A DNA stretch of 40,517 nucleotides, from the NCBI GenBank assembly GCA_029213165.1, contig JARGNO010000029.1, forward strand, positions 1 through 40,517. The letters run 5' to 3'. The stretch comes from Minwuia sp. Its GTDB lineage: Bacteria; Pseudomonadota; Alphaproteobacteria; Minwuiales; Minwuiaceae. The notes beneath the pieces are model-generated. The model was not told the origin of the DNA and did not search any database. It was given only the letters and a program-made list of their open reading frames with translations. The position numbers and the translations under genes were made by a program. Below are positions 1 to 40,517 of this stretch, piece after piece (the first letter of the stretch is position 1; every line of letters begins with the position of its first letter).

Positions 1-1805
1 GGCAGATTGGCCGGGTCCTGTGCCTGCTTCGCCAGCTCGAACAGGTCGATGCCGCGATCAGTGCCGGTCACGGTGAAGCGACCATCGGCATATTCGATGT
101 CCACCTCCGCCGTTTCCAGGATCTGCGCCGCGATCTTGCGGCCCTTTTCCAGCGTCTTGTCGGCGGCCCCCAGGATGGACGCACCACCCACGGGGATCGA
201 CTTGGAGCCACCGGTGAAGCCCGGCGGCGTCAGGTCGGTATCGCCTTGCAGCACATGAATGTCGTCGGCGTCGATGCCGAACTTCTCCGACAGAATCTGC
301 TTGTAGGAAATGGTGTGGCCCTGACCGCTGTCCATGGCACCTGTCAGGATGCGCACCTTGCCTGCGTCGGCGTCGAAGACCAGCTTCGCCGGAATTCCGT
401 TGCCGCCACCGCAGCGCTCGACATAGGTGGCGAGACCTATGCCACGCAGCTTGCCCGCAGCCTCCGATTGCTTGCGCCGGGCGTCGAAACCGGCCCAGTC
501 GGCGGCCTTCATGGCGTCTTCCATGCAGGCGGTGAATTCGCCCGAGTCTATGACGTCGCCCAGCCCCATCGTGTGCGGCATCTCGGCCGGTGTGGGGAAG
601 TTGCGGCGGCGGATCTCGTCTGGGGTCAGCCCCATCTCCGTCGCCACCCGGTCCACCAGCCGCTCGATCATGTAGGCGGCCTCTGGCCGTCCGGCACCGC
701 GATAGGCGTCGGTCGGGACCGTGTTGGTCATGACGCCGAGTACGGAAACGCGGCAGAGCGGGATCTTGTAGAGACCGGTGTACATTCCCGCGCAGGCATC
801 GGTCGGGATAAAGGGACCGAAGTTGGCCAGATAGGCCCCCATTGCCGCGTAGGTGGTGGCCCTGATCGCCTGGAAATGACCGTCCTTGTCCATGGCCAGT
901 TCAGCGATGGTGACATTGTCGCGCCCGTGGCTGTCGGACAGGAATATCTCGGAGCGTTCGCCGGTCCAGCGTACGGGACGCTTCAGCCGCTTCGCCGCCC
1001 AGAGCGTCAGACAGGATTCCGGATAGAGGAAGGCCCGCGTGCCGAATCCGCCGCCGACATTGCCGGTCAGCATCCGCAGCTTCTCCATCGGGATCGACAG
1101 CATTCCCGACAGCATCTGCAGATGCATCGCCGGACCCTGGCTGGGGATGAAGACCGTGAAACGTTCCGTCGTCTCGTCATAGGCGACCGCGGCGGCGCGC
1201 GGCTCCATGGGGTTGGAGACCAGGCGGTTGTTGATCAGGCGGATCTGCGTCACCCGATCCGCCTTGTCGAAGGCGGCATCGACAGCGTCCTTGTCGCCCT
1301 TGCCATAGCGGAACACGACATTGTCGGGAATGTCGTCCCAGACCGGGTTCGCACCCGGCTGCGCCGCCTCGTAGGTGTCGGTCGCGACCGGCAGGTCGTC
1401 GATCTCCAGCTCGATCAGGTCGGCGGCATCGCGCGCCTGCGCCAGTGTCTCCGCGACGATGAACGCAACAGGCTCGCCCACGTGGCGCACCTTGTCGGTG
1501 GCCAGGATCGTGCGCGGCGGACGCGGATGATCGGTCCCGTCCTCGTTCTTGATGCCGGTCAGGCAGAGCAGGTTGCCCACCTTGTCGGCGGCAAGCTCGT
1601 CGCGGGTCAGCACCTCCACCACGCCAGGGGCCTGCCGCGCGGCGGAGACATCCAGACTGGTGATGGTGCCGTGCGCGACGGCGGAGCGGAAGACGAAGCC
1701 GCGCAGGGCGCCTTCGACCTGCGCATCGTCGGTGTACTTGCCCAGGCCCCGCAGCAGGTCCTGGTCTTCGGTTCTGAGGGCACGTGCGCCAACGCCAAAC
1801 TTCAT
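1..1805 (-). CDS. Xanthine dehydrogenase/CO dehydrogenase family molybdopterin-binding (large) subunit, form II, partial
   Basis: This is the large, Mo-cofactor-binding subunit of a xanthine-oxidase-family hydroxylase. The ATG is at 1805-1803 and the frame stays open for 601 codons to the left window edge, so the C-terminal part lies outside. Visible family signatures are a glycine-rich GGGFGTR motif near residues 251-257, the AYRGAGRPE motif at 367-375, and a Gln/Gly-rich pterin-binding stretch (DSGQGH) later on. AYRGAGR marks form-II CoxL-like proteins. True aerobic CO dehydrogenases (form I) carry AYxCSFR, so CO oxidation should not be assumed and the substrate is unknown. The medium (FAD) and small (2Fe-2S) subunits are not in the window and may lie to the left. 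The next gene upstream (SDR) ends 15 bp before this start, which suggests co-transcription. The family call is secure; the substrate is not. Confidence 0.93.
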   Translation of the reverse strand, partial: MKFGVGARALRTEDQDLLRGLGKYTDDAQVEGALRGFVFRSAVAHGTITSLDVSAARQAPGVVEVLTRDELAADKVGNLLCLTGIKNEDGTDHPRPPRTILATDKVRHVGEPVAFIVAETLAQARDAADLIELEIDDLPVATDTYEAAQPGANPVWDDIPDNVVFRYGKGDKDAVDAAFDKADRVTQIRLINNRLVSNPMEPRAAAVAYDETTERFTVFIPSQGPAMHLQMLSGMLSIPMEKLRMLTGNVGGGFGTRAFLYPESCLTLWAAKRLKRPVRWTGERSEIFLSDSHGRDNVTIAELAMDKDGHFQAIRATTYAAMGAYLANFGPFIPTDACAGMYTGLYKIPLCRVSVLGVMTNTVPTDAYRGAGRPEAAYMIERLVDRVATEMGLTPDEIRRRNFPTPAEMPHTMGLGDVIDSGEFTACMEDAMKAADWAGFDARRKQSEAAGKLRGIGLATYVERCGGGNGIPAKLVFDADAGKVRILTGAMDSGQGHTISYKQILSEKFGIDADDIHVLQGDTDLTPPGFTGGSKSIPVGGASILGAADKTLEKGRKIAAQILETAEVDIEYADGRFTVTGTDRGIDLFELAKQAQDPANL

Positions 1806-28079: not shown

Positions 28080-28100
28080 TGGCGGTGTCCGATTGAACCC

Positions 28101-28303
28101 AGCGGGAGAGATCAGTCCTTTGTCTGGAAACAGGCGCGGGATGGACGCCGAAGGAGCAACCGCCCCGGAAACTCTCAGGCAAACGGACCGCTGGGTGACG
28201 GCACTCTGGAAAGCGGAGCAGGCCTGCGGGTCCGCTCTCACCGAAGGGGTACGACCGGCAGCAAGCCGCTGGTCCAGTCTCTCAGGTCCCACGACAGAGG
28301 GGG
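28101..28303 (+). ncRNA. Tandem glycine riboswitch (gcvT motif)
   Basis: Two adjacent glycine aptamers lie in the gcvT leader. Aptamer 1 (about 28101-28191) shows GGGAGAGA, GCCGAAGGAGCAA and ACTCTCAGGCAAACGGAC. Aptamer 2 (about 28202-28303) shows CGAAGGGG, CTCTCAGGTCCC and the closing GACAGAGG. These are the conserved CGAAGG and CUCUCAGG-type cores of RF00504. A short linker (about 10 nt) separates them, as in cooperative tandem switches. In most bacteria glycine binding turns on the glycine-cleavage genes, which is what follows here. A hairpin at 28312-28333 is the probable expression platform. Confidence 0.95.
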
Positions 28304-33735: not shown

Positions 33736-34197
33736 ATGTCGGACGACATTCTCAGTCTCTTGGAGGCCTACTGGCAGAGCAAGTGCCGGGCTGATCGGCT
33801 TCCGACACGCCAGGATATCGATCCTGCCGAGATCAGGCGGCTGCTTGCCCATATCTCGTTGATTGATGTCGCGATGGACGGAGCGGGCTTTCGCTTTCGC
33901 CTCGTCGGGACCAAGGTCGTGCAGCAGCTTTCATATGACCCTACAGGTCAGGACGTGGCCGAAGGGCCGCAAACGGGCAAGGGATCACCATTCTGGAAAT
34001 TCCTGACAGCCGTCGCCACGGACCTGCAGCCAGGGTCGATCGAATTGCCCTATTTCGGCAACAACGTGTCGTTCGGCAGTATCCGGATAGTCGGATTTCC
34101 GCTTCTGGCCGATGGCGTGATCGACAAGGTACTGCTGGGCTTCAGCTTTGCCGGCGCCACGGAGATGCATGAACCGAAGCGGTGTATTAAACAGTAA
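33736..34197 (+). CDS. PAS_5-type PAS domain-containing protein
   Basis: This 153-residue protein is one PAS_5 (PF07310-like) domain, recognisable from LEAYWQSKCRADRLPTRQDIDPAEIRRLLAHISLIDV, then FRFRLVGTKVVQQLSYDPTGQDVAE and IRIVGFPLLADGVIDKVLLGFSF. Such stand-alone proteins are common in Rhodospirillales and similar groups; the ligand and partner are unknown. It carries no output domain. AAAGGGGAG lies 5 nt before the ATG. A CRP-type palindrome upstream suggests catabolite- or redox-type control. The gene is followed by a very AT-rich stretch that differs from the rest of the window. Confidence 0.85.
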   Translation: MSDDILSLLEAYWQSKCRADRLPTRQDIDPAEIRRLLAHISLIDVAMDGAGFRFRLVGTKVVQQLSYDPTGQDVAEGPQTGKGSPFWKFLTAVATDLQPGSIELPYFGNNVSFGSIRIVGFPLLADGVIDKVLLGFSFAGATEMHEPKRCIKQ

Positions 34198-34361
34198 TAA
34201 TATGTGATATAAAATATATACCATCGAAGAAGGATATTTATATTGACTTACGTGCCATGAGGATGAAATCATTCACATGGAAACAACGGCACGTAAATAC
34301 TCCGGTCATACAGCGACACCTGATGCGCCTGTACTGATCGCCACGGAATGGCCCACCGACC
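34198..34361 (+). promoter_or_regulatory. AT-rich upstream region of the cysG leader
   Basis: The first 50 bases after the PAS_5 stop are extremely AT-rich for this window (ATATGTGATATAAAATATA). TTGACT at 34243-34248 could be a -35 box; the bases 16-18 bp on (AAATCA/AATCAT) are a poor -10. The region probably holds the promoter of the cysG operon, but I cannot fix it. A 7-base arm CCACGGA (34341-34347) inside it recurs downstream of the aptamer. Confidence 0.4.
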
Positions 34362-34420
34362 TGACGGGCTCGCGGAATTTGATCGGGCAGCTTGCACCCG
34401 CGTTATCAAATGCTAAAGCG
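34362..34420 (+). ncRNA. SAM-II riboswitch (candidate, strong by motif)
   Basis: The order of conserved elements matches the SAM-II (metA, RF00521) aptamer. P1 is CGCGG (34371-34375) with CCGCG (34398-34402). The loop carries AATTTG and ends in CTTGCA (34391-34396). After P1 comes GTTATCAAATGCTAAAGCG with the invariant GCTAAA at 34412-34417. From memory the structurally known metX example has GATTTAACCG, TTGCA, CGTGATAAATG and GCTAAAAAGG in the same order and spacing. The aptamer folds as a pseudoknot that closes when SAM is bound. It sits about 126 nt before the cysG ATG in an operon ending in metZ, in keeping with SAM feedback on sulfur assimilation. SAM-V has a related core and is the alternative. 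Confidence 0.8.
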
Positions 34421-34463
34421 CCACGGAGCGAACTCCGTGGGCCCTTTCGAGGCACGGAGTTCG
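34421..34463 (+). promoter_or_regulatory. Alternative hairpins after the SAM-II aptamer (probable expression platform)
   Basis: Arm A CCACGGAG (34421-34428) pairs with CTCCGTGG (34433-34440) to give an 8-bp stem with a CGAA loop, followed by GCCCTTTCG. The same right arm, read as CGAACTCCGTG (34429-34439), is also perfectly complementary over 11 bp to arm C, CACGGAGTTCG (34453-34463). The two stems cannot coexist. The T-run is short (TTT), so termination may be Rho-assisted or the switch may act otherwise. The remainder of the leader to 34545 holds the ribosome-binding site GGGAGGGG. Confidence 0.65.
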
Positions 34464-34545
34464 GGACAATGATCCCAGCAAGTTCAGACAAGTTTGATGC
34501 CACGCAGAGTCGCTGGCTCCATCCTGCTTTGGGAGGGGCCTGACC

Positions 34546-35946
34546 ATGCAGGCATTTCCGATCTTCCTGAAACTCAAGGGCCGCACTGCGCTGCTGGTTG
34601 GCGGTGGTGACGCCGCCGCCGCGAAGCTGCGGCTGCTCATTGCCGCCGGATCGGATGTCCGCGTCGTGGCACGCGATGCTGACGACTGCGTCCGGGAACT
34701 GGTGGATGGCAGTCAGGTCTCCCTGATCGAGGACAGTTTCGATACGTCCCACCTCGTCGGCATCGTGGTGGCAATCATCGCCACGGAAGATGAGGCAGAG
34801 GATACGCGTGTGGCGGCCGCGGCGCGTGCGGCGGGCGTGACGGTCAATGTCGTTGACCGTCCGGCACTGTCGGATTTCACGATGCCCGCCATCGTCGACC
34901 GTGATCCCGTGACTGTCGCAATCTCCACTGGTGGTGCTGCGCCGGTGCTGGCGCGGCAGGTGCGCGGCGCGGTGGAAGCCGCATTGCCGGCGCAGCTTGG
35001 CGCGCTGGCCGGTTTCATGAACAGTTTCCGCAGCGCTGTGGCTGCCATCCGACAGACGCCGAAGGCGCGCCGGAAGTTCTGGGAGGGGTTTCTCTCCGGT
35101 CCGGTCGCCCGTGAAGTGCTGGACGGCAACGAGGGATCGGCGCGTCAGCACATGCTCGCCCTGGTCAATCAGGGTGAAGTGAATGATCCGGTTGGCCGGG
35201 TTGCCCTTGTCGGGGCGGGGCCGGGTGACCCGGAACTGCTGACACTGAAGGCGCATCGCCTGCTGAAGCAGGCAGACGTGATCGTGCATGACAAGCTGGT
35301 GGGCGAGGGGGTGCTGGAACTCGCGCGTCGTGATGCCCGGCTGGTCTATGTCGGCAAGTCGCGCGGGCATCACCATCGCACGCAGGACCAGATCAACGAC
35401 ATTCTGGTTGCGGAGGCGGAGGCCGGAAATCTGGTCGTTCGCCTGAAGGGTGGGGATCCCTTCGTCTTCGGTCGTGGCGGAGAGGAAGTCGAACACCTGC
35501 ATGCCCACGGGATAGAGGTCGAGGTGGTGCCTGGCATCACCGCGGCGGCGGGCTGCGCCGCATCTGCAGGCTTCCCGCTGACCCATCGCGGCAAGGCCAG
35601 CGCGGTGACCTTCCTTTCCGGGCAGGGCAAGGACGGCAAGCCGGATCTTGACTGGCGGGCGCTGGGGCAGGCGAACCACACGCTGGCCATCTACATGGGC
35701 ATCGACACCGCGCGCACCTCCGCCCGGGAACTCATCGCCCATGGCCGCGACCCGGGAACACCCGTTGCGGTCATCGAGAATGGCACGCTGCCGAGCCAGC
35801 GTGTCCTGCGGGGGCGACTGGATCAATTGCCCGAGCTGGTGAAACGGGAAGCGGTCGTGACCCCGGCCCTGCTGATCATCGGCGAGGTGACCGGCAAGAC
35901 AATTGACGCTGCGGCGGTTCAGGACCGCCTGGCGCTGGCACTCTGA
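34546..35946 (+). CDS. cysG: Siroheme synthase CysG (bifunctional)
   Basis: CysG makes siroheme, the cofactor of sulfite reductase, from uroporphyrinogen III. The 466-residue protein fuses a precorrin-2 dehydrogenase/ferrochelatase half (ALLVGGGDAAAAKLRLL near residue 15, then VDRPALSDFTMPAIVDRDPVTVAISTGG) to a SUMT methyltransferase half from about residue 223 (VALVGAGPGDPELLTLKAHRLL, GDPFVFGRGGEE, VPGITAAAGCAASAGFPLTHR, AIYMGI). Start preceded by GGGAGGGG. It is the first gene of the cys-met operon and lies under the SAM-II leader. Supplying siroheme from the same transcript as cysI is sensible. Confidence 0.97.
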   Translation: MQAFPIFLKLKGRTALLVGGGDAAAAKLRLLIAAGSDVRVVARDADDCVRELVDGSQVSLIEDSFDTSHLVGIVVAIIATEDEAEDTRVAAAARAAGVTVNVVDRPALSDFTMPAIVDRDPVTVAISTGGAAPVLARQVRGAVEAALPAQLGALAGFMNSFRSAVAAIRQTPKARRKFWEGFLSGPVAREVLDGNEGSARQHMLALVNQGEVNDPVGRVALVGAGPGDPELLTLKAHRLLKQADVIVHDKLVGEGVLELARRDARLVYVGKSRGHHHRTQDQINDILVAEAEAGNLVVRLKGGDPFVFGRGGEEVEHLHAHGIEVEVVPGITAAAGCAASAGFPLTHRGKASAVTFLSGQGKDGKPDLDWRALGQANHTLAIYMGIDTARTSARELIAHGRDPGTPVAVIENGTLPSQRVLRGRLDQLPELVKREAVVTPALLIIGEVTGKTIDAAAVQDRLALAL

Positions 35947-35965: not shown

Positions 35966-36253
35966 ATGGCACTCGAAATCATCACGGCAAACCGTCTCGG
36001 GGACGGTCTGGTGATCTTTCTGACGACAGACGGCTGGTCGGCACGGATCGACGCAGCCGCCGTATCGGAGACCAAGGATGAAACCGCGGCGCTGCTGGCG
36101 CGCGCGGAGGCCGACGCCGGCCTTGTTGTCGGTCCGTACGAGATCACGGTGGAACGGCAGGCGGATGGCAGCCTCCACCCGGTGAAGTACCGCGAGGCCC
36201 TGCGGACGCGCGGGCCGTCCGTTCGCACCGACCTTGGCTATCAGGCTGCCTGA
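35966..36253 (+). CDS. DUF2849 domain-containing protein
   Basis: This 95-residue protein (ITANRLGDGLVIFLTTDGWS ... GPYEITVERQADGSLHPVKYREALRTRGPSVR) matches DUF2849, a small alphaproteobacterial family almost always located between cysG and the sulfite/nitrite reductase gene. A role in sulfite reduction (for example electron transfer or reductase assembly) is inferred from context only. It has no cysteine, so it is not an iron-sulfur carrier. GGAG lies about 10 bases before the ATG at 35966; the frame also extends upstream into cysG without support. Confidence 0.88.
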   Translation: MALEIITANRLGDGLVIFLTTDGWSARIDAAAVSETKDETAALLARAEADAGLVVGPYEITVERQADGSLHPVKYREALRTRGPSVRTDLGYQAA

Positions 36254-36277
36254 GCGCAGCAAGCGGGAGAAACAGAC

Positions 36278-37933
36278 ATGTATGTCTATGACGAGCTTGA
36301 TCGTGGCCTGGTGAATGAACGGGTCGAGGAATTCCGGGACCAGGTCAACCGCCGCATTTCCGGCGAACTGACGGAGGAGCAGTTCAGGCCCCTTCGCCTG
36401 ATGAACGGCCTGTATCTGCAGTTGCACGCCTACATGCTGCGTGTTGCGGTGCCCTATGGTGTGCTCTCCAGCACCCAGATGCGGAAACTGGCGCGGATCG
36501 CACGTGTCTATGATCGCGGTTACGGCCATTTCACGACCCGCCAGAACATCCAGTTCAACTGGCCGAAGCTGGAAGAGACGCCGGATATCCTGGCGGAACT
36601 GGCCGAGGTCGAGATGCATGCCATCCAGACCTCCGGCAATTGCATCCGCAATACCACTGCGGACCAGTTTGCCGGGGCGGCTGCCGATGAACTGGAAGAC
36701 CCGCGTATCTGGTGCGAGATCATCCGCCAGTGGTCGACGTTCCACCCGGAGTTCACCTTCCTGCCGCGCAAGTTCAAGATCGCGGTGACCGGTGCCGTCA
36801 GCGACCGCGCCGCGATCAAGGTGCATGACATCGGCATAGTGCTGGTGCAGGGCACGGACGGGGAAGTCGGTTTCGAGATATGGGCCGGGGGCGGTCTGGG
36901 CCGCACGCCGATGATCGCGAAGAAGATTCGCGACTTCCTGCCGGCAACCGATCTGCTGAGCTATCTGGAGGCGATGCTGCGCGTCTACAACCGCTTCGGT
37001 CGGCGCGACAACAAGTACAAGGCGCGCATCAAGATCCTGGTGCACGAGATCGGGGCCGACGCCTATCGCGATGCGGTCGAGGCGGAGTGGGCGGATATCC
37101 GTGACGGTGCGCTGGCGCTGCCGGAGCAGGAGATCAGCCGTATCCGCGAGGCCTTCACACCACCTGCGTTCGAGGCGCTGGAGACGGCCTCCACAGCGTT
37201 CGAGGCGCGCAAGTTCGAGGATCGCGGCTTTGCCCGCTGGGTGGCCAGCAATGTCCGTCGCCACAAGGTGCCGGGCTATGCCATCGCCAACATCTCGCTG
37301 AAGCCTGCCGGGGGCATTCCCGGTGACGCGACGGCGGAACAGATGGACGCGGTCGCCGACTATGCAGACCGCTGGTCGTTTGGTGAGTTGCGGGTGGCGC
37401 ATGAGCAGAACCTGGTCCTGCCGCATGTCCGCCAGGAAGACCTATACGATCTCTGGCTGGCGCTTGGCTCGGTGGAACTGGATGCGCCGAACATCGGTAC
37501 GCTGGGCGACATCATCGCTTGCCCGGGCATGGACTACTGCAGTCTGGCCACGGCCCGTTCGATCCCGGTGGCGCAGCAGATCTCGGAGCGCTTTGCCGAT
37601 CTGGAGCGGCTGCACGACATCGGCTCGGTCAGCCTGAACATCTCCGGCTGCATCAATGCCTGCGGTCATCACCACGTGGGCAACATCGGCATCCTTGGCG
37701 TCGACAAGAAGGGTGAGGAATTCTACCAGGTCACCCTCGGCGGACAGGCCGACGAGAATGCTGCAATCGGCAAGATCATCGGTCCGGGCTTCGCCTCCGA
37801 CGCGATTGTCGATGCCATCGAAACCATCATCGAAACCTATCTGTCGGTGCGTCAGGACGGTGAGACCTTCATCGGCACCCTGAATCGCCTCGGCCAGACC
37901 CCATTCAAGGAGGCTCTCTATGGCACTGCTTAA
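36278..37933 (+). CDS. cysI: Ferredoxin-type sulfite (nitrite/sulfite) reductase
   Basis: This 551-residue siroheme-[4Fe-4S] reductase catalyses the six-electron reduction of sulfite to sulfide. The four cluster/siroheme cysteines are in CPGMDYC (Cys415, Cys421) and GCINACGHHHVG (Cys458, Cys462). Siroheme-anion-binding Arg/Lys segments include YGHFTTRQNIQFNW and TSGNCIRNTTADQ. The operon lacks the flavoprotein CysJ, so electrons probably come from ferredoxin or another donor. A nitrite reductase of the same family is possible from sequence alone, but the cysG-cysH-metZ setting favours sulfite. The DUF934 gene starts 14 bp before its stop, with its AAGGAGG inside cysI. Confidence 0.93.
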   Translation: MYVYDELDRGLVNERVEEFRDQVNRRISGELTEEQFRPLRLMNGLYLQLHAYMLRVAVPYGVLSSTQMRKLARIARVYDRGYGHFTTRQNIQFNWPKLEETPDILAELAEVEMHAIQTSGNCIRNTTADQFAGAAADELEDPRIWCEIIRQWSTFHPEFTFLPRKFKIAVTGAVSDRAAIKVHDIGIVLVQGTDGEVGFEIWAGGGLGRTPMIAKKIRDFLPATDLLSYLEAMLRVYNRFGRRDNKYKARIKILVHEIGADAYRDAVEAEWADIRDGALALPEQEISRIREAFTPPAFEALETASTAFEARKFEDRGFARWVASNVRRHKVPGYAIANISLKPAGGIPGDATAEQMDAVADYADRWSFGELRVAHEQNLVLPHVRQEDLYDLWLALGSVELDAPNIGTLGDIIACPGMDYCSLATARSIPVAQQISERFADLERLHDIGSVSLNISGCINACGHHHVGNIGILGVDKKGEEFYQVTLGGQADENAAIGKIIGPGFASDAIVDAIETIIETYLSVRQDGETFIGTLNRLGQTPFKEALYGTA

Positions 37934-38429
37934 GAACGGGCGACTGATCCAGGACCGCTGGACCACCGTCGAGAACCTGACCGATGCGCTGAAGCCCGGT
38001 GGCGTGCTGGTTCCGCTGGAACTCTGGCTGGCGGAGCGCGACACCCTGCGGGGCAAGAGTGCGGTGGGTGTCATCCTGCCGAACGATGCCGATCTGGACC
38101 TGCTGGCGGAAGACTACGACCGCATCGCGGCCATCGTCCTGACCTTCCCGTCGATGGTGGATGGCCGGGCCTTCTCCCAGGCTCGCCTGATTCGCGAACG
38201 CTTCGGCTTCGATGGGGAGATCCGCGCCCGCGGTCCGGTGATCGCCGACCAGTACCTGTATCTGCTGCGCTGCGGCGTCGATGCCGTTGAAGTGCCTGAA
38301 GATACCAATGTCGAAAGCTGGCTGCGGAATGCGCGACGGTTCTCCGCTGTCTATCAGCCCGCTGCTGACGACCGTATCCCGGCCTATCGCCGCCGCCACC
38401 TGGTGGCGGCCTCGGCCATCGCTTCCTGA
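37920..38429 (+). CDS. DUF934 domain-containing protein
   Basis: This 169-residue member of DUF934 is annotated in many genomes as an oxidoreductase probably involved in sulfite reduction. Conserved parts are GRLIQDRW, LVPLELWLAER, VGVILPNDADLDLLAEDYDRIAAIVLTFPSMVDGRAFSQARLIRERFGF and GEIRARGPVIADQYLYLLRCGVDAVEV. It lacks a recognisable cofactor site. AAGGAGG lies 6 nt before the ATG, 14 bp inside the cysI 3' end, so translation is coupled. Its fixed position between cysI and cysH in Proteobacteria links it to the pathway, but the biochemical role is unknown. Confidence 0.9.
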   Translation: MALLKNGRLIQDRWTTVENLTDALKPGGVLVPLELWLAERDTLRGKSAVGVILPNDADLDLLAEDYDRIAAIVLTFPSMVDGRAFSQARLIRERFGFDGEIRARGPVIADQYLYLLRCGVDAVEVPEDTNVESWLRNARRFSAVYQPAADDRIPAYRRRHLVAASAIAS

Positions 38430-38441
38430 GGAACTGCTGAC

Positions 38442-39188
38442 ATGTCGCTTCAGTCCCGCCAGCCCTTTCCCGATATCGAGCGTCTGATCCGGTCCTCGAA
38501 CCGCGCGTTCGAACTGAACGAGACCTGCGGTGAGATGCAGGGGATGGATCTGATCGCGGCGGCGCGTGACGCTTTCGGTGACAGGCTGACGCTGGTGTCA
38601 TCCTTCGGCACCGAAGCGGCGGTGCTGCTGCACATGGTGGCAGAGGTCGATCCGTCGATCACGGTGACCTTCGTCGATACGCGCCGTCTGTTCGGTGAGA
38701 CCCTGCGCTATCGCGACCAACTCGCCGCGCGCTTGGGACTGATGGACGTGCGCACCGTCGCGCCCGACCCGCGTCGCGTGAAGCAGCTCGATGCGGATCA
38801 GATGCTGTTCAACCGGGACACCAACCTGTGCTGTCACATCAGGAAGGTGGAACCGCTGGAGCGGGCCCTGAACGGCTTCGACGCCTGGATCACGGGCCGC
38901 AAGTCCTATCAGGCGGAGACCCGGCGGTACCTGCCTGCCGTGGAGGCTGTCGGAGGACGGGTGAAGTTCAATCCATTGGCGCGTTTCACACCTGATCGGA
39001 TCGACGGCTGGTTCAGGGACCACAATTTGCCGCGTCACCCGCTGGAGGCGGATGGTTTTCTTTCCGTTGGCTGTATGCCATGCACGGACAGGGTCAAGCC
39101 GGGCGAGGATCCGCGATCCGGGCGCTGGCGGGGTCAGGACAAGACAGAATGCGGCATCCATGAAGGTGTCGCAGGCGACGGTATCTGA
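38442..39188 (+). CDS. cysH: Assimilatory adenylyl-sulfate (APS) reductase
   Basis: This 248-residue protein reduces activated sulfate to sulfite. The paired cysteines Cys130-Cys131 (NLCCHIRKVEPL) and Cys211/Cys214 (VGCMPCTDRV) form the CC...CxxC [4Fe-4S] motif that distinguishes APS reductases from the cluster-free PAPS reductases of E. coli. The nucleophile is Cys237 in KTECGIHEG, and SSFGTEAAVLLHM is the nucleotide loop. APS use means APS kinase (cysC) is not needed; the ATP sulfurylase genes (cysDN) are not in this window. It begins 12 bp after the DUF934 gene and precedes a rhodanese gene by 14 bp. Confidence 0.96.
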   Translation: MSLQSRQPFPDIERLIRSSNRAFELNETCGEMQGMDLIAAARDAFGDRLTLVSSFGTEAAVLLHMVAEVDPSITVTFVDTRRLFGETLRYRDQLAARLGLMDVRTVAPDPRRVKQLDADQMLFNRDTNLCCHIRKVEPLERALNGFDAWITGRKSYQAETRRYLPAVEAVGGRVKFNPLARFTPDRIDGWFRDHNLPRHPLEADGFLSVGCMPCTDRVKPGEDPRSGRWRGQDKTECGIHEGVAGDGI

Positions 39189-39202
39189 GGGGCATCAGGA
39201 AT

Positions 39203-39625
39203 ATGAGTGAAGGATATGCGGGCGATCGCAGCCCGTCGGACACCTATGCTGCGTTGAAGGCAGAGACGGATGCGGTTCTGGTGGATGTGCGCACCGTGCC
39301 TGAGTGGCAGTTTGTCGGCGTACCGGATCTGGCGCCGGTGTCGAAGGAAGCCCTGTTTGTCGAATGGCAGGCCTATCCGGAGATGAAGATCAACGAGGGC
39401 TTCGCGGCTGCCGTTGAGGCGAAGGGTGTGGCCAAGGATCAGCCGGTCTATCTGCTCTGCCGTTCCGGCGTGCGGTCGAAGGCGGCGGCCAAGGCTCTGA
39501 CCGCTGCCGGCTTCCAGGCCTGCTACAACATCCTGGAGGGTTTCGAGGGCAATGCGGATGGCGACGCCCATCGCGGCAATCTTGGCGGCTGGAAACATGC
39601 CGGCCTGCCCTGGAGGCAGCAATGA
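39203..39625 (+). CDS. Rhodanese-like domain protein
   Basis: This 140-residue single rhodanese domain has the active-site loop CRSGVRS with Cys86, flanked by YLLCRSGVRSKAAAKAL and VLVDVRTVPEWQFVGVP. A persulfide on Cys86 is expected. The C-terminal AHRGNLGGWKHAGLPWRQ is typical of the small rhodaneses found in sulfur operons. The position between cysH and metZ suggests handling of sulfane sulfur or sulfide in assimilation, but the acceptor is unknown. It overlaps metZ by 4 bp (ATGA, 39622-39625). Confidence 0.93.
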   Translation: MSEGYAGDRSPSDTYAALKAETDAVLVDVRTVPEWQFVGVPDLAPVSKEALFVEWQAYPEMKINEGFAAAVEAKGVAKDQPVYLLCRSGVRSKAAAKALTAAGFQACYNILEGFEGNADGDAHRGNLGGWKHAGLPWRQQ

Positions 39626-40517
39626 CCGGCAATGTCGCCGACACGGCGGCGCAATGGGAACTGGAAACCCGCCTGGTGCGGGGCGGTCTTGACCGTTCCG
39701 CCAATGGAGAGACGAGTGAAGCACTGTTCCTGAACTCCGGCTTCGTCTACGAGACGGCGGCTGACGCCGAAGCACGCTTCAAGGGGGAGCAGGAAGGCTT
39801 CGTCTATTCCCGCTACGGCAATCCGACTGTCGCCATGTTCGAGGAACGGATGCGGCTGCTGGAGGGGGCGGAGGCCTGCTTTGCCACGGGTTCCGGCATG
39901 GCGGCGGTCTTCGCCGCGCTGATGTCGCAATTGAAGACCGGTGACCGGGTGGTGGCGTCCCGCGCGCTGTTCGGAAGCTGTCATCACATCCTGACACAGA
40001 TACTGCCGCGCTTCGGCATCGAGAGCGTGCTGGTTGAGGGGACGGACCTGAACGAATGGGCCGACGCGCTGAAGCCCGGTGCGGCGGTTGTCTTCCTCGA
40101 AACACCTGCCAACCCGACCCTCGACCTGATTGACCTGCGTGCCGTGTCCGATCTGGCCCACGCTGCGGGGGCGCGTGTGGTGGTGGACAATGTCTTCGCG
40201 ACGCCGGTGCTGCAGCGCCCGATGGATCATGGTGTCGATATCGTCGTCTACTCGGCGACGAAGCACATTGACGGGCAGGGCCGCGTGCTTGGCGGTGCGG
40301 TGCTGGGCAGCAAGGATTTCGTCGACAATACCCTGATGCCGTTCCTGCGCCATACCGGCCCGGCGCTCAGTCCGTTCAATGCCTGGGTGTTGTTGAAGGG
40401 GCTTGAGACGCTGACCCTGCGGGTGGAGCGCATGTGCGAGAACGCGGCAAAGGTGGCGGCGCATCTGTCGGCCCAGCCGGGCGTTTCGCGGGTGATCTGG
40501 CCTGGCGCGGATGACTT
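39622..40517 (+). CDS. metZ: O-succinylhomoserine sulfhydrylase, partial
   Basis: This gene runs off the right edge after 298 codons. The product is a Cys/Met-metabolism PLP enzyme that makes homocysteine from O-succinylhomoserine and sulfide. The N-terminal part QWELETRLVRGGLDRSANGETSEALFLNSGFVY, SRYGNPTVAMFEERM, CFATGSGMAAVFAAL, and the PLP lysine Lys214 in YSATKHIDGQGRVLGG are visible; this combination points to the metZ branch and less to metY or metB. It uses the sulfide produced by the preceding genes and would be a direct target of the SAM-II switch at the operon start. Confidence 0.95.
   Translation, partial: MTGNVADTAAQWELETRLVRGGLDRSANGETSEALFLNSGFVYETAADAEARFKGEQEGFVYSRYGNPTVAMFEERMRLLEGAEACFATGSGMAAVFAALMSQLKTGDRVVASRALFGSCHHILTQILPRFGIESVLVEGTDLNEWADALKPGAAVVFLETPANPTLDLIDLRAVSDLAHAAGARVVVDNVFATPVLQRPMDHGVDIVVYSATKHIDGQGRVLGGAVLGSKDFVDNTLMPFLRHTGPALSPFNAWVLLKGLETLTLRVERMCENAAKVAAHLSAQPGVSRVIWPGADD

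Follow-up and report, generated by a model that had tools for sequence, protein, structure and literature searches.

The cysG operon and its leader

Examination of the analysed stretch of DNA (the window, 40,517 nucleotides from Minwuia sp.) reveals seven closely spaced genes on the + strand, which run from cysG to metZ and form the siroheme, sulfite-reduction and metZ operon that had been described in the original prediction. The leader and the genes behind it comprise the following features:

34243..34272, + strand: candidate promoter, TTGACT-18-AATCAT (consensus scan, 3 found versus 0.5 expected)
34277..34543, + strand: longer open frame of 88 codons with the aptamer in frame, its ATG at +34 from TTGACT
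34350..34370, + strand: P0 hairpin, abutting the 5' side of P1, in which 34350-34353 pairs with 34367-34370 (covariation)
34371..34402, + strand: P1 of the SAM-II fold, CGCGG 34371-34375 with CCGCG 34398-34402, enclosing ATTTGAT and CAGCTTGC (RF00521 match; 100% paired)
34385..34422, + strand: P2 pseudoknot, GGGCAGC 34385-34391 with GCT 34412-34414 and GCGCC 34418-34422 (conservation)
34421..34440, + strand: P3 hairpin, CCACGGAG-CGAA-CTCCGTGG, its first two bases common to the pseudoknot (covariation)
34429..34439, + strand: strand b, CGAACTCCGTG, predicted anti-Shine-Dalgarno and alternative partner of 34453-34463 (11 bp perfect, z -2.74 versus shuffles)
34453..34463, + strand: strand a', CACGGAGTTCG, holding the Shine-Dalgarno GGAG at 34456-34459 (complementarity to b)
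34469..34543, + strand: small ORF of 24 codons, MIPASSDKFDATQSRWLHPALGGA, with a Shine-Dalgarno-led start 24 nt past the modelled element and its stop TGA two bases 5' of cysG
34546..35946, + strand: cysG, siroheme synthase, the first gene of the operon (NF007922, 574 bits)
35966..40515, + strand: the remaining operon (DUF2849, sulfite reductase, DUF934, cysH, rhodanese and metZ), running off the window

An AT-rich block lies upstream of the candidate promoter, and TTGACTT is found at the place of this promoter in all 7 Minwuia leaders. All seven also have an ATG at exactly +34 from TTGACT, from which the frame stays open across the aptamer as far as cysG; this spacing would fit a leaderless ORF (34277-34543), and it is possible that ribosomes cross the aptamer by way of this frame. 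An inverted repeat (TTACGTGCC...GGCACGTAA, window 34250-34296) surrounds the presumed transcription start and is only roughly kept between species; together with the upstream AT-rich block it could be an activator site. Elsewhere in the window (28093-28301), a pair of neighbouring glycine riboswitch aptamers (RF00504, 66.9 and 36.7 bits) precedes genes that by eye resemble glycine-cleavage genes. The genome also encodes, on another contig, a second, nearly full-length CysG-like protein that is 40% identical (L025, G000:C16:80305-81621).

The aptamer, its flanking helices and its distribution

The SAM-II core of the cysG leader spans 34371-34422, and the SAM-II layout letters that had been noticed here beforehand are all present at 34371-34420, where the pattern CGCGG-AATTTGATCGGGCAGCTTGCAC-CCGCG-TTATCAAATGCTAAAGCG has its one match in the window, with 0 expected from shuffles. 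With RF00521 (SAM_alpha), the match covers 34362-34436 and scores 30.6 bits (E 3.3e-5 over the 401 bases searched, 8.1e-5 over the whole genome). This falls short of the gathering score of 36 bits, which serves as a threshold for detection and does not describe structure. RF01726 (SAM-II long loop) likewise misses its threshold on this leader (23.5 bits, gathering 44), and RF01826 (SAM-V) gives no match in 34200-34600 up to E 10. The original prediction had staked the SAM-II assignment on a covariance-model hit above gathering, or else on compensatory changes in P1 and conservation of GCTAAA in related leaders. While the former did not materialize with either RF00521 or RF01826, the alignment of related leaders bore out the latter, with GCTAAA kept in 71 of 71 and two P1 pairs showing changes on both sides.

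P1 is paired in 100% of cells across the 70 distinct sequences. The P2 pseudoknot, an H-type arrangement in which the loop pairs with the GCUAAA 3' tail, is paired in 94.5% of cells as opposed to 16-41% when slid; its pairing rests on conservation only, the test for covariation having shown none because the letters of P2 are nearly invariant. AAA 34415-34417 occupies the position of the SAM pocket in this fold, and the pocket letters TT of ATTTGA (T30, T31) and CTTGC are, like GCTAAA, kept in 71/71 leaders. These letters belong to CAGCTTGC and GCTAAAGCG, the invariant core of the subtype, which presumably include the bases that contact SAM in the SAM-II structure. Given that the pocket bases are invariant, SAM is the likely ligand of the cysG-leader element.

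Beyond the core, the alignment reveals two further helices. P0 has two-sided changes in 4/4 pairs and is 97.5% paired (70 sequences), and this holds outside the window's family; P3, located 3' of GCUAAAGCG, is likewise 97.5% paired, with two-sided changes in 6 of its 8 pairs (70 sequences). Over all helices, 98.3% of cells are paired and 12 of 17 pairs have two-sided changes (70 distinct sequences), giving a covariation score of 0.374 versus 0.127 for shuffled alignments (0/500 reach 0.374) and at most 0.09 for slid ones. The covariation persists in the 37 outside sequences that are left after removal of the window's family. The CCACGGAG...CTCCGTGG hairpin was also considered as a terminator and rejected for want of a U-tract.

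A covariance model (R2) built from 37 sequences, all from outside the window's family, finds the element at 34350-34444 with 98.8 bits (E 9e-20), and no further hit in the window has an E under 0.5. Together these observations support the element being a SAM-II-type riboswitch of a divergent subtype, with P0 and P3 lying outside the Rfam consensus, so that the earlier call of a SAM-II aptamer holds in this modified form. Its placement at 34362-34420 was right but slightly short, as P0 begins at 34350 and P3 extends to 34440; it had not included these two helices, the anti-Shine-Dalgarno strand, the small ORF or the second, canonical SAM-II in the genome. The whole element with P0 and P3 covers 34350-34444, and the expression platform extends to about 34471.

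A second model (R1), made from ten subtype elements and covering P0, P1 and P3, has matches in 69 of 385 alphaproteobacterial genomes (E <= 0.001), and among 299 genomes drawn from the phylum its matches are confined to the same class; canonical SAM-II copies score no higher than 28 bits with it. By comparison, RF00521 reaches its cut-off at the element in one of the 20 subtype loci scanned (L112, 37.9 bits), and several of these loci have no Rfam match even at E <= 1. The P0/P3 subtype is widespread in alphaproteobacteria and under-detected; as it escapes the Rfam cut-off, alphaproteobacterial SAM regulons are under-annotated. The element lies 5' of cysG in 7/7 Minwuia genomes compared, of which RF00521 detects five (25.7-31.7 bits); inspection of the sequence and the dedicated model reveal those of G003 and G007. 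Order-level searches, the order being represented by 9 genomes, yielded no further members.

The subtype coexists with canonical SAM-II in several genomes. That of the window has a second, canonical SAM-II (49.7 bits) before a metY-type gene. G002, of the same family, has a canonical-type SAM-II before cysG and a P0/P3 copy before a gene resembling homocysteine methyltransferase. In G079 and G087, which belong to other families, two SAM-II elements occur in series before cysG, in the order canonical aptamer, terminator-like GC hairpin with a T run, and P0/P3 subtype:

L077:307-480 (G079): tandem SAM-II before cysG
L067, about 1280-1500, reverse strand (G087): tandem SAM-II before cysG

The genes behind R1 matches, some of them named by eye, are most often metZ/metY (17 ORFs) and cysG (11, seven of these from Minwuia), along with MetN-type ABC transporters, OsmC followed by metY, cysH, sulfite reductase, peroxiredoxin, metF, metX and a sulfate-binding-like protein. 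Scanning 84,980 species genomes for the exact pattern gave 64 sites, where the nearest recognised gene is metZ/metY at 21, cysG at 17 and cysH at 6, with other sulfur genes at most of the remainder. The cysG-type sites come from several families, including Thalassobaculum litoreum, Kiloniellaceae, BAL199, Minwuia and others. The targets reported for SAM_alpha are metY, metA, metX, hom, metC and metW (PMC4239095), and the literature searched held no paper with cysG as a SAM-II target, an absence there that is no proof of novelty. Thus, the earlier suggestion that cysG is an unusual context agrees with that literature, but with cysG nearest at 17 of 64 sites it is a recurrent context within the subtype itself. 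At two loci (L180:4304-4345, OY282363; and L098) the subtype has an unusual neighbour, a hemB-like gene about 160-180 bases on; at other loci hemB stands behind metY.

Leader ORFs and the proposed translational switch

In 66 of 73 leaders the best Shine-Dalgarno-led start codon lies 15-35 nt after P3 or the modelled element, compared with 20.7 +/- 4.2 in shuffled sequences. In the window this start opens the 24-codon ORF, the end of which is separated from the start of cysG by two bases (TGACCATG). All 7 Minwuia have the same small-ORF layout with differing peptides, the ORFs of the other species being 24-43 codons long, with 2 to 10 bases between their ends and cysG. The stop overlaps the cysG start (ATGA/GTGA) in the 19-25-codon ORFs of G318, G002 and five named or binned relatives, and at the remaining cysG loci examined the Shine-Dalgarno initiates cysG directly. 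The position of the ORF stop at cysG is moderately significant in a shuffle test with one member per group (~6e-4), the null for the overlap being a weak one, as a stop is built into ATGA/GTGA starts. Selection on the amino acids of the leader peptides was looked for and none was visible, which is what one would expect if it is translation itself, and not its product, that counts. The layout alone suggests that the small ORF might be translated and needed for cysG.

Strand b, which consists of the P3 loop and 3' strand, could pair with either P3 or a'. Over 71 leaders the b:a' duplex has a mean z of -1.14, with 19 below -2, and it includes an SD-like motif in 59 of 71 (a raw count). When GCGCC is locked in local folds, the predicted openness of the Shine-Dalgarno, the motifs being chosen by hand, is lower in 49 of 59 leaders, by a median of 26-fold. 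In the local fold of the window it drops from 0.25 to ~1e-6, versus 0.19 in a control where the bases just 3' of P3 were blocked instead. In the whole-leader fold of the window the openness is 0.002 in both the free and the bound state, and the free/bound ratios of whole-leader folds across leaders are mixed. As the switch is clear in the local fold only, it is a supported proposal rather than a demonstration; P3 overlaps the pseudoknot arm by two bases only.

The computed features are the conservation of the RNA with its helices, the location of the Shine-Dalgarno, the complementarity of b and a' and the ORF layout; from them we infer the ligand, switching, coupling and operon-wide effect as follows. 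Binding of SAM would stabilise the pseudoknot, whose 3' arm GCGCC would take the two basal bases of P3; the weakened P3 would then release its loop and 3' strand (b) to pair with a', hiding the Shine-Dalgarno. Without SAM, P3 would be complete and the Shine-Dalgarno accessible, allowing translation of the 24-codon leader ORF and, by translational coupling, of cysG. This coupling would carry along the siroheme, sulfite, APS-reduction and metZ operon, so that high SAM would turn the operon off; gene order is the one ground for extending riboswitch control to all seven genes. We consider it probable that the P0-P1-P2-P3 SAM-II subtype acts as a translational OFF switch for the coupled leader ORF and sulfur operon.

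Alternatively, the element could be a SAM-II riboswitch with a classical platform, in which cysG would be controlled by a terminator or by the pseudoknot itself, P3 serving only as a structural buttress. Six P3 pairs remain even with the first two bases in the pseudoknot, and canonical SAM-II acts via terminators or direct occlusion of the Shine-Dalgarno (PMC9373788, PMC2258182). However, no terminator was found within 34150-34600, and the Shine-Dalgarno is ~35 bases from the pseudoknot and complementary to the P3 loop and 3' strand, which makes this arrangement rather unlikely. It is more improbable still that the leader serves chiefly as a coding region, with an ORF of 88-113 codons, possibly leaderless, that is translated with the aptamer inside it, the latter for example slowing the ribosome, such that coupling to cysG becomes SAM-dependent. 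The frame from the ATG at +34, open to cysG in every Minwuia leader, and length differences in multiples of three point in this direction, but pN/pS is mostly 0.5-1.3 versus ~0.1 in cysG, arguing against amino-acid selection, and in the GC-rich DNA here open frames by chance are appreciable.

The same fold might also bind another ligand, such as SAH or some other sulfur metabolite, given that the subtype is a separate one that scores under the SAM_alpha cut-off and co-occurs with canonical SAM-II in the same genomes, sometimes in tandem. The SAM-II pocket bases are nevertheless invariant and tandem copies of a single SAM class are known (PMC9481103), and we regard a different ligand as very improbable.

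Leaders of genes other than cysG differ in the composition of the short ORF that follows the element. Among 36 gated short ORFs before non-cysG genes, 20 carry two or more cysteines among the final seven residues (shuffled sequences: mean 0.9, maximum 5), with examples such as MTPMRKSILCCCR and MTCCCP, several of them before MetN-type transporters. Loci with Cys-ended ORFs include the following:

L131, L132, L133, L138, L139, L144, L149, L152: Cys-ended short ORFs directly behind the subtype
L153, L154, L157, L159, L160, L161, L162: further Cys-ended short ORFs directly behind the subtype

These runs of Cys codons suggest that the SAM switch may feed a cysteine attenuator placed behind it in the non-cysG leaders, a combination of SAM switch and cysteine uORF of which the literature searched held no report. 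In light of the above, we tentatively propose, at somewhat less than an even chance, that the P0/P3 subtype is a separate, class-wide one that serves many alphaproteobacteria as their general SAM switch for sulfur assimilation. The direct output would be a Shine-Dalgarno located ~25 nt beyond P3, at which it is often a short leader ORF and not the gene that begins, the ORF being coupled to cysG in cysG operons and Cys-ended elsewhere, where SAM would gate a second, Cys-tRNA-dependent sensor. If the proposed control is true, SAM would act at the RNA level on more than the last methionine steps, governing as a unit the synthesis of siroheme, the reduction of sulfite and APS and the formation of homocysteine. 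With the Cys-rich leader ORFs behind the same switch, the idea that one transcript reads two sulfur signals in series would be open to test.

Comparison with known systems

The subtype shares with SAM-II/SAM_alpha (RF00521, RF01726) the P1 helix, the L1 ATTTGA, CAGCTTGC and the GCTAAA pseudoknot, as well as an occurrence in leaders of methionine and sulfur genes of alphaproteobacteria; it differs in having P0 abutting P1, P3 abutting the core and a nearly invariant CGCGG/CCGCG P1. Tandem SAM-II riboswitches have been described in 44 cases (PMC9481103), and G079 and G087, with a canonical SAM-II followed by the subtype, are comparable, whereas the window has the second element only; the tandem SAM-II section of that report names neither the P0/P3 subtype nor cysG.

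The SAM-II riboswitch of Sinorhizobium meliloti metA, which controls translation at a distance (PMC9373788), is likewise translational, comes from an alphaproteobacterium and has a start codon near the aptamer with the real gene start further down. There, however, the pseudoknot hides a Shine-Dalgarno situated inside the riboswitch, while the prediction for the window is a separate exchange between P3 and the anti-Shine-Dalgarno; in the window, moreover, a stop at cysG closes the small ORF. The B12 riboswitch of Mycobacterium tuberculosis ppe2 (PMC11260477) resembles the proposed arrangement in gating a translated uORF that the downstream gene needs for its own expression, through termination-reinitiation; there the aptamer binds cobalamin and the gating was shown experimentally, as against the inferred gating in the window. 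Finally, no riboswitch is described in front of uORFC-8-2, a cysteine attenuator before cysS in Rhodobacterales (PMC8632094), and the small ORF of the window has no cysteine run, but the short ORF and tandem Cys codons of this attenuator are like those of the 20 non-cysG leaders of the subtype.
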